Origin: Epidermidibacterium keratini
GTDB lineage: Bacteria; Actinomycetota; Actinomycetes; Mycobacteriales; Antricoccaceae
Assembly (NCBI RefSeq): GCF_009834025.1
Contig: NZ_CP047156.1
Span: 3,680,067 to 3,744,066 of the forward strand
Direction of reading: 5' to 3'
DNA: 64,000 nucleotides
Shown here: in pieces, positions 26,336 through 28,176 of the stretch
How positions within the stretch are numbered: position 1 is the first letter of the stretch
Layout of the letters: every line of letters begins with the position of its first letter
Translations under genes and position numbers: made by a program
Notes under the pieces: generated by a model
Told to the model about the DNA's origin: nothing
The model's input: the letters and a program-made list of their open reading frames with translations, nothing else
Databases searched by the model: none

Positions 26336-26368
26336 CAGGGCCCGGCGGACACGTTCCGCCGGGCCCTG
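26336..26368 (+). terminator. Strong intrinsic-type hairpin after nrdJ
   Basis: Perfect 14-bp stem (26336-26349 with 26355-26368, CAGGGCCCGGCGGA and its complement) and a 5-nt loop, 11 bp after the nrdJ stop. It lacks a U tract, as is common in actinobacteria. Confidence 0.8.
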
Positions 26369-26466
26369 TCGCATCCGTGCGGGCCGCTGACCTCGCGCGC
26401 TGGTCCGAACCCCTCGGACTAGGGCACGCTAGAGCCAAGCCAGCGGTACGCAGAGAGCGAGACAGC

Positions 26467-28176
26467 ATGAGTTCGAACTACCGGCCGCCGCAGCGGCGTA
26501 CGCCGGCCATCATGGTGATCGCCGACCCCGAGCAGGTCGAGCATGCGACCGACGAGTTCGCGGCGCGCTATGCCCGCGACTACGACATCCGTTCGGCGAC
26601 GAGCGCTGAGCAGGCCGAGCGGCTGACCCGCGAGCTGGTCGCCGACGGCGAGCCGATCGCGATGTTTGCCGTCACGATGGACCTGCCCGACAGCAGCTTC
26701 GATGATCTCGTTCCGGAGCTGCGCCGGATGAGCCCGACCACCCGCGCGGTGTGCATCGTTGCCGGAAAGTGGGCCTCGCCGTATCTGGACCGGCTGCGCG
26801 AGGCGGTCTCCGACGGCGTGATCGATGCCTACCTGGTGATCCCGCGAGGCCCGCGCGACGAGGAGTTCCACACCGCGATCGCCGAGATGCTGTCAGAGTG
26901 GGGCTGGACCTCGGCGGCGCCGGAGGCCGAGGCGCTCCAGCTCGTCGCGCGCGAGGCATCGCCAGAGCTGCTGCGGTTGAAGGACATCGCCTCGCGCATG
27001 GGTGTGCCGTTCGGCAAGTACCCCGCCGACTCCGAGGTCGGCCAGCAGATCATCGCGCAGGCCGGCGACGACGCCCGGCTGCCGCTCGTGCGGACGATGA
27101 CCGGCGAGATCCTGCAGGACCCGAGCCTGGCTGACCTCGGCGAAGCGCTCTCGGCATCGGTGTCGGAGCTGCCAGAGGACTTTGTGGCGGACCTGCTCAT
27201 CGTGGGAGCCGGCCCGGCCGGGCTGGCCAGCGCGGTGTACGGCGCATCGGAGGGCCTGCAGACCGTCGTACTCGAGTCCGAGGCGACCGGCGGGCAGGCT
27301 GGGACGTCGTCGATGATCCGCAACTACCTCGGCTTCCCGCGCGGCATCTCCGGCATGCGTCTCGCGCAGCGCGCGCGGTTTCAGGCCAACCGGTTTGGCG
27401 CGAAGTTCTTCATCGGCCGACCGGCCGAGCGGCTGATTCCCGGCGATCCGCACACTGTCGTGCTGGAGGGTGGCGCGACGGTCCGGGCGCGCGCGGTCGT
27501 GGTGTCGACCGGCGCCGAGTACCGCCGGCTCGGCATCGACTCGGTCGAGCAGTACGTCGGGCGCGGGGTGTTCTATGGCGCCGCGATGAGCCTCGCGCAG
27601 CTCATGCGCGGTCAGCGCGTCTATATCGTCGGCGGCGGCAACTCCGCGGGCCAGGCCGCCGTCCACCTCTCGCGGTTCGCGGCGCAGGTCACCATGCTGG
27701 TGCGCCGCCGGGACCTCAGCGAGACCATGTCGGAGTACCTGATCCGCGAGGTCACCGCCAACTCGCGCATCGAGGTGCGTGGCAACACCGAGGTGGTCGA
27801 TGCCGGGGGAGAGGACCGGCTGTCGTGGCTGCTGCTGCGCGATGCGGCGACCGGCCGCGAGCAGCGGGTCCGGGCCGGGGCGTTGATGCTGCTGCTCGGC
27901 GCCGATGCGTGTACGACGTGGCTCCCGCAGCAGATCGCCTTGGACGAGCGGGACTTCGTGACGACGGGCCGCGACGTACCCCAACCGCTGTGGTCCGGCG
28001 AGCTTCCCCCGCAGTCGCTGGGCACCAGCGTGCCGGGTGTGTTTGCGGTCGGCGACGTGCGCAGCGGCTCGATGAAGCGGGTGGCCTCGGCCAGTGGCGA
28101 GGGGGCGTCCGTCGTACCGCTGGTGCACGCCTACCTCGAGGAGTGCGCGACGCAGCGCAGCGCGGAGCCGGTCTGA
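26467..28176 (+). CDS. Fused pseudo-receiver / thioredoxin reductase-like flavoprotein
   Basis: 569 residues in three parts. Residues 1-130 resemble a response-regulator receiver, but the acidic pair is AD (IMVIADPEQ) and the phospho-acceptor position in AVTMDLP appears to be Thr, so phosphorylation is unlikely. A middle segment (about 150-230) resembles the glutaredoxin-like linker of this family without a CxxC. Residues 240-560 are a TrxB-like FAD/NADPH module (IVGAGPAGLASAVYG, GGQAGTSSMIRNYLGFP, VYIVGGGNSAGQAAVHL, GVFAVGDVRSGSMKRVASASGEG). Where TrxB has CATC this protein reads GAAM, so disulfide exchange is lost. The electron acceptor is unknown. ATG 26467 follows a promoter-sized gap; AGAGAGCGAGA is upstream. 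Confidence 0.85.
   Translation: MSSNYRPPQRRTPAIMVIADPEQVEHATDEFAARYARDYDIRSATSAEQAERLTRELVADGEPIAMFAVTMDLPDSSFDDLVPELRRMSPTTRAVCIVAGKWASPYLDRLREAVSDGVIDAYLVIPRGPRDEEFHTAIAEMLSEWGWTSAAPEAEALQLVAREASPELLRLKDIASRMGVPFGKYPADSEVGQQIIAQAGDDARLPLVRTMTGEILQDPSLADLGEALSASVSELPEDFVADLLIVGAGPAGLASAVYGASEGLQTVVLESEATGGQAGTSSMIRNYLGFPRGISGMRLAQRARFQANRFGAKFFIGRPAERLIPGDPHTVVLEGGATVRARAVVVSTGAEYRRLGIDSVEQYVGRGVFYGAAMSLAQLMRGQRVYIVGGGNSAGQAAVHLSRFAAQVTMLVRRRDLSETMSEYLIREVTANSRIEVRGNTEVVDAGGEDRLSWLLLRDAATGREQRVRAGALMLLLGADACTTWLPQQIALDERDFVTTGRDVPQPLWSGELPPQSLGTSVPGVFAVGDVRSGSMKRVASASGEGASVVPLVHAYLEECATQRSAEPV

Follow-up and report, generated by a model that had tools for sequence, protein, structure and literature searches.

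A gene in the 64,000-nucleotide stretch of the Epidermidibacterium keratini genome analysed here (the window) encodes a protein that we interpret as a regulated NADPH flavoprotein and not as a disulfide reductase, with a UBP-type zinc-finger (zf-UBP) protein as its likely partner and with its phospho-switch gone. We consider this interpretation about evenly balanced between right and wrong. An initial annotation had described a receiver, a glutaredoxin-like part and a thioredoxin reductase (TrxR)-like part joined in one protein, all without their canonical reactive residues. Matches of fold, profile and sequence support all three modules, and the residues are indeed missing: T70 stands at the receiver Asp, the linker has no Cys, and GAAM stands in place of CATC. 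The features are as follows.

26336..26368, no strand assigned: perfect 14-bp hairpin between nrdJ and the flavoprotein gene, without a T run.
26467..28176, + strand: whole gene, encoding a pseudo-receiver, a Cys-less glutaredoxin-fold linker and a Cys-less TrxR-like FAD-NADPH module, 569 aa.
26503..26916, + strand: degenerate receiver, residues 13–150 (predicted fold and alignment columns).
26674..26676, + strand: T70 codon, at the column of the phospho-acceptor Asp (alignment).
26932..27171, + strand: glutaredoxin/mycoredoxin-fold linker without Cys, residues 156–235 (predicted fold and profile match).
27184..28143, + strand: TrxR-like FAD/NADPH module, residues 240–559 (sequence and fold matches).
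27205..27222, + strand: GAGPAG, residues 247–252, the FAD-binding GxGxxG motif (sequence).
27577..27588, + strand: GAAM, residues 371–374, at the site of CATC in TrxB (alignment).
27631..27660, + strand: GGGNSAGQAA, residues 389–398, the NADPH-binding motif (sequence).
27910..27912, + strand: C482 codon, in a loop with a Cys at 482 or 483 in 31 of 34 orphans (alignment).
28051..28080, + strand: GDVRSGSMKR, residues 529–538, the C-terminal FAD GD motif (sequence).

The reading frame runs on the + strand from an ATG at 26467 to the stop at 28176 (569 aa); an upstream GTG at 26377 is a possible alternative start, giving 599 aa. Sequence libraries match the protein only from about residue 230 onward. 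The full-length predicted model is weak (pLDDT 69.6, and below 50 at 273–294, 477–504 and 512–544). The N-terminal 238 residues were folded together with seven relatives, giving a pLDDT of 83, and the order of elements in this model is (βα)5 followed by β-α-β-α-β-β-α.

Conservation was followed in 75 aligned rows, made up of the window protein, eight related loci, seven plasmid loci and 59 further genome stretches, and falling into 34 orphan, 15 intermediate, 21 receiver-intact and 5 cNMP-type rows. At a threshold of E 1e-75 the family is present in 180 of the 394 genomes of the class, and orphans in 31 of the 394. The orphan rows comprise all 31 of these genomes (30 loci and the window) together with L034–L036. 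The 41 non-orphan rows are a sample of 149 non-orphan family genomes and consist of 19 near relatives, 10 class matches, 7 plasmids and 5 related loci. Two broken or partial sequences (L042, L043) were excluded from the 75 rows, and a third with an apparently broken frame (L028) was used in the first, 33-row alignment only.

The TrxR-like module is the most readily recognised part of the protein. It is matched by Pyr_redox_2 at E 1.8e-31 and by solved thioredoxin reductases at up to 142 bits, and its score with TIGR01292 (TRX_reduct) is 206.9 bits, under the equivalog cut-off of 343.45. The FAD and NADPH sites look intact, as the initial annotation had proposed: the GxGxxG and GD motifs for FAD and the GGGNSAGQ and VRR motifs for NADPH are all kept, and the corresponding columns are invariant or almost so across the family. 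At residues 371–374 the protein has GAAM where the TrxB of the same genome has CATC. No family row has CATC at this site (0/75), compared with 5/5 TrxB outgroup rows, one of them from the genome of the window. The receiver-type rows read Y-G at these columns, mostly followed by A/S-A. CATC is likewise absent from 10/10 plasmid proteins from Cyanobacteriota, Deinococcota, Pseudomonadota and Actinomycetota, three of which are also among the 75 rows; the ten include proteins from Paraburkholderia, Caballeronia, Microvirga and Bosea, two each from Nostoc and Deinococcus, and those of Rhodococcus and Streptomyces. No conserved residue substitutes for the flavin-proximal Cys, and column 374 varies. 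Since the loss recurs in every aligned row, it belongs to the family as a whole and is no defect peculiar to the window gene. A family without CATC cannot use the thioredoxin reductase mechanism, and the names given to its members in the plasmid records, thioredoxin-disulfide reductase or FAD-dependent oxidoreductase, are probably wrong where they are of the thioredoxin reductase type. Two further observations concern this module. One plasmid protein (L143) has a CLNC near column 438, and the PHROG entry phrog_6397, labelled as a ribonucleotide reductase large subunit, matches the module at E 2.9e-58, where the label looks wrong.

The linker has no Cys in the window protein, and none in 59 of the 75 rows. 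Its assignment to the glutaredoxin fold rests on secondary-structure order and a profile match, the VIA-align rows having covered the receiver only. In the model its elements run β-α-β-α-β-β-α, which is the order of the thioredoxin/glutaredoxin fold. With a profile built from 11 family linkers, the top match is the mycobacterial glutaredoxin Rv3198.1 (2lqo; E 0.0019), and a GST (0.17) and a glutaredoxin (0.32) come next. The Pfam Glutaredoxin model matches three of six linkers below threshold (E 0.014–0.24), and that of the window protein is unmatched. The family residues that lie over the CGYC of Rv3198.1 are other than Cys, and none of the 75 rows has a CxxC at the glutaredoxin site. A CxxC occurs somewhere in 5/75 rows: in the linker of L113 and L115, before the start of the domain in L119 and L056, and near column 505 in L137. 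The motif in L113 and L115, both orphans with a UBP gene just upstream, is a CGHC that lies around column 215, in the β-hairpin region of the linker and not at the glutaredoxin site.

The receiver part of the window protein has no match in a Pfam search up to E 0.1. Its fold is seen in the N-terminal model, which aligns with the 2rjn receiver chain in VIA-align with a Z of 16.7 and 3.3 Å over 134 residues, and two relatives are matched by PF00072 at E 2.9e-14 and 2.9e-15. In the columns of the phospho-Asp, Thr and Lys the window protein has T70, V98 and I125; the first residue of the acidic pair is kept as D20 and the second is P21. The set required of a phosphorylatable receiver (acidic pair, Asp, Thr/Ser, Lys) is thus not complete in this protein.

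Across the family, the state of the receiver goes with the presence of a histidine kinase with a cNMP_binding and a HATPase_c domain. The full receiver set is found in 21/21 kinase-paired rows, in 0/34 orphans and in 0/15 intermediates. Counting as in the locus any kinase within the 7–16 kb taken for each, it is there in 21/21 rows with an intact receiver versus 0/49 with a decayed one. Two of these 49 (L131, L138) keep both Asp and Lys, and in them the Thr is gone. In the orphan clade the Lys is lost in all 34 rows, and the Asp column has Glu in 15, Asp in 14, Thr in two (including the window protein), Gly in two and Ser in one. The Glu of those 15 pseudo-receivers is possibly a fixed phospho-mimic.

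The genome of the window has no match to the cognate kinase at 1e-60; the best hit scores 48 bits and is confined to query residues 305–475. Within the class the kinase is found in 139 of 394 genomes, 138 of which carry the flavoprotein family. It is missing from 28 of the 31 orphan genomes, and in the other three (G212, G399, G406) it adjoins a second copy of the family. For the 15 intermediate rows, 11 genomes were searched, of which nine have the kinase elsewhere in the genome, and at least in G027 and G406 this unlinked kinase adjoins a second family copy. The decayed copy in the intermediates may be a paralogue that is no longer tied to the kinase.

In a tree built on the TrxR module only, by a quick search without bootstrap, the absence of a linked kinase and the decay of the receiver coincide as one change, on a single branch that leads to 49 rows with an SH-aLRT of 98; support for the orphan clade is 100. 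The association is therefore a single unreplicated observation, for which a phylogenetic sign test has no power. To judge from the aligned sequences, receiver decay is a trait of the clade and CATC loss a trait of the family. The losses listed in the initial annotation are thus real in the window protein, but do not form one odd event: those of CATC and CxxC are family-wide and that of the receiver is limited to the clade. The family alignment that it proposed gives a divided answer on whether they are conserved, with CATC absent from 75/75 rows and the receiver intact in the 21 that are paired with a kinase. A TrxR loss in all rows and a receiver loss across a clade together make a pattern beyond chance.

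The gene could in principle be a relic, decaying since the kinase was lost. Mean pairwise identity among the orphans is indeed below that of the intact group for the receiver (0.45 vs 0.70) and for the linker (0.35 vs 0.52), as a relic would predict, but for the TrxR module conservation is equal in the two groups (0.68 in orphans, 0.65 in the intact group). For 13 pairs of close relatives chosen by hand (7 orphan, 3 intermediate and 3 intact), dN/dS is below 1 in all domains, at 0.05–0.29 for the TrxR module, 0.05–0.61 for the receiver and 0.07–0.80 for the linker. Furthermore, orphans persist in 31 of 394 genomes, and the DEEFH at residues 131–135 of the receiver is invariant in 8/8 aligned rows (four orphans and four intermediates). 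A relic is therefore rejected on dN/dS and on the conservation of the TrxR module, and we consider it extremely improbable. The orphan receiver looks like a pseudo-receiver that has been retained for its shape.

The N-terminal input domain is exchangeable across the family: it is a receiver with a kinase, a cNMP-binding domain, a pseudo-receiver, or none. The stand-alone versions have 404 and 420 aa and are found in Paraburkholderia and Rhodococcus. It is worth adding some observations on plasmids and phages. Three cyanobacterial plasmids (L067, L068, L146) have GlgX, an AGE epimerase and the receiver-flavoprotein in common, with its kinase either adjacent or, in L067, 2.6 kb downstream; LtrA lies near two of the three and also occurs in Deinococcus L066. 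A faecal record labelled 'Bacteriophage sp.' (MT838110.1, 4270–5182) has a TrxR-like stretch with 69% DNA identity over 36% coverage, and may be a bacterial contig. A mobile or defence gene was considered and rejected: PADLOC has no match for the flavoprotein, the kinase or the UBP protein, and that single record, at 36% coverage, is the only one from a phage.

The window protein has three cysteines, at 96, 482 and 560. A Cys at 482 or 483 is present in 31/34 orphans (the exceptions being L108, L116 and L118) versus 0/41 other rows. A different position, column 380, which is Met in the window protein, has Cys in 18/21 receiver-intact and 5/5 cNMP-type rows, in 4/34 orphans and in 0/15 intermediates. 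Conserved cysteines elsewhere had been named at the outset as what would count against a loss of disulfide chemistry. Single cysteines of this kind do exist, at 482/483 in orphans and at 380 in other groups, but as each of them is single, a CATC-like dithiol is not restored.

Bdr/YpdA are TrxR-like reductases with a single Cys, which forms a mixed disulfide with a partner thiol. The window family might do the same through its one Cys, for which the two group-specific distributions would be the evidence. We regard this as unlikely. The Cys column differs between groups, three orphans have no Cys at 482/483, and the 15 intermediates have neither Cys; moreover, C482 falls in the region of the model (477–504) that is under 50 pLDDT, where its distance from the flavin is unreadable. 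In the reading that we prefer, the lone, clade-specific C482 may be an extra redox element. The Cys at 482/483 and the CGHC in the linker of two orphans could be signs that some thiol chemistry persists.

The gene neighbourhoods point to a partner. In plasmids of Tsukamurella and Streptomyces, receiver-intact relatives are encoded in an operon of flavoprotein, kinase and UBP-type zinc finger, in that order and with 4-base overlaps. A UBP gene also adjoins the stand-alone flavoproteins of Paraburkholderia and Rhodococcus, and in four orphans (L113, L115, L127, L129) one lies just upstream on the same strand, 22–92 bases before the aligned start. Overall, zf-UBP is in the locus in 12/21 intact, 3/5 cNMP-type, 4/34 orphan and 0/15 intermediate rows. 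At the level of genomes it occurs in 169 of 180 with the family versus 62 of 214 without it, as raw counts that ignore relatedness and genome size, and in 28 of the 31 orphan genomes. In the genome of the window, the UBP gene lies far from the flavoprotein gene (L044 6147–6509). In the gene table, which is incomplete, no UBP annotation adjoins the members examined from cyanobacteria, Deinococcus, Caballeronia, Bosea and Microvirga terrae. Apart from UBP, neighbours conserved across the orphan clade are rejected on the first 40 clusters listed, which gave a set close to genes identified by eye as rpoA and those of ribosomal proteins, common to about 10 loci of a single group. On this pattern of gene order and co-occurrence, the zf-UBP protein is a likely partner of the flavoprotein, as substrate, target or adaptor.

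Some UBP-containing loci have additional features. The flavoprotein with a cNMP domain follows ClpB, thioredoxin and UBP in a run seen in L054, L062, L069 (5277–7236) and L145 (147–5275), including Rhodococcus and Streptomyces, in whose records CbpM precedes ClpB. In L054, L062 and L069 a further two CxxC motifs precede the active site of the thioredoxin. In Tsukamurella (L064, 9559–10644) an S-(hydroxymethyl)mycothiol dehydrogenase gene directly follows UBP; none was seen in the other 74 loci of the family.

Within the window itself, the gene upstream is nrdJ, for a class II ribonucleotide reductase (NF005122, 1600 bits against a cut-off of 859), on the same strand and ending 141 bases before the flavoprotein gene. 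Downstream, a convergent gene for a PNPOx-fold protein ends one base beyond it. The position of nrdJ might suggest that the flavoprotein is an electron donor for NrdJ or its cobalamin. This role is rejected, and in our opinion has hardly any chance of being correct: the perfect 14-bp hairpin lies between the genes, an nrdJ-like ORF (E 1e-10) is found in none of the other 74 family loci, and the genome has a CATC-type TrxB of its own. The hairpin is GC-rich with no T run and is possibly an actinobacterial terminator. Its location suggests separate transcription; the flavoprotein gene is likely to be its own transcription unit, and the adjacency of nrdJ looks incidental.

On the basis of these observations, the protein appears to follow the plan of AhpF and TrxR, a glutaredoxin-fold domain and a TrxR-like module, minus both catalytic dithiols. 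NADPH would reduce FAD as in TrxR. With no dithiol present, the flavin would have to hand its electrons elsewhere or else act as the signal through its own state. The sequence leads most naturally to an acceptor that is not a disulfide of the enzyme, or to a sensing role, and in the reading that we prefer the flavin would pass electrons to such an acceptor. The input domain would set the activity of the flavoprotein module or its docking to a partner, for which the zf-UBP protein, as substrate, target or adaptor, is the candidate. In the clade of the window, where the fold of the receiver is kept and phosphorylation would be lost, control may be constitutive or may come through another contact.

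The protein could instead be a non-catalytic sensor, in which the redox state of FAD or the occupancy of NADP(H) shifts the domain orientation, as in TrxR-type proteins, and so signals to a partner, with no electron acceptor. A flavin-proximal Cys without a conserved replacement would fit this, as would the fusion to signalling domains and the linkage to a small zinc finger. On the other hand, the cofactor motifs are under strong constraint, and the signalling domain of the family would be the input and the flavoprotein the output, for which sensing alone is less natural. A sensor is to our minds rather unlikely. As other members have a switchable input domain, the flavoprotein is taken to be the output, which makes an enzyme likelier than a mere sensor.

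A broader picture can be drawn, tentatively and as one that is more probably wrong than right. In this, a Cys-free NADPH flavoprotein and a UBP zinc-finger output would form a redox-signalling module that crosses phyla, with its inputs swapped in evolution; in the clade of the window a pseudo-receiver and a newly fixed Cys would have taken over control from phosphorylation, and the targets of the flavin electrons would be the zinc finger or the client protein of the latter. If a response regulator or a cNMP-gated protein does have a flavoenzyme as its output, signalling would be coupled directly to electron flow. The association with the zinc finger provides a concrete candidate partner, and the clade of the window shows the module persisting after loss of the phospho-switch.

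Of the known systems, TrxB (NTR, TIGR01292) is the closest to the TrxR-like module. It has the same FAD/NADPH fold, with the same motifs in the same order; the nearest PDB entry by sequence is of this type, as are most of the top-ranking matches by fold. The window protein differs in having GAAM for CATC, S375 for the Asp that follows, extra N-terminal domains, and a score of 207 as against 343 bits. AhpF uses CxxC in both of its parts. Like the window protein, it has a thioredoxin-fold domain before the TrxR module, and it takes the top three places in a Foldseek search with the whole model (E 3.4e-25 to 2.6e-24), but the superposition is poor overall (TM about 0.2). The window protein has no CxxC in either part, its first domain is a receiver, and it scores 131 bits with the AhpF model TIGR03140, below the cut-off of 503. 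AhpF has two further N-terminal Cys, according to PMC8945050.

The same architecture, by name, is that of the TrxB-type response regulators, in which a receiver (REC) is joined to a pyridine nucleotide-disulphide oxidoreductase output. REC-TrxB regulators are a listed type, and in PMC9953108 (Table 5) one is counted as response regulator family 'TrxB' in a thermophilic cyanobacterium. The window protein differs from these in its dead receiver and in a genome without the kinase. To judge from the cyanobacterial relatives analysed here, the TrxB-type regulators presumably have no CATC. The plasmid proteins recorded as 'cyclic nucleotide-binding domain-containing thioredoxin-disulfide reductase' have the same linker and the same TrxR-like core without CATC; their input is a cNMP-binding domain, and ClpB, thioredoxin and UBP genes are nearby in the records examined.

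Finally, TrxR-like ferredoxin-NADP reductases (FNRs) and Bdr/YpdA are likewise flavoproteins resembling TrxR. The match to FNR is weaker, with 61 bits for the best FNR chain versus 142 for TrxR, and the YpdA model TIGR04018 gives 57 bits. The C-terminal extension of FNR, with its FAD-stacking residue from the other monomer, was looked for, and only nine residues follow residue 560, the model being poor at 477–544. FNRs of the YumC type have no CxxC, as stated in PMC10294844. No paper that discusses the missing Cys of this family, or links the family to UBP zinc fingers, turned up in a literature search, which is weak evidence of absence, as most subscription papers lay outside the search. REC-TrxB regulators as a type and TrxR-like enzymes without CxxC are already known, and the link to UBP and the loss of Cys throughout the family may be new.
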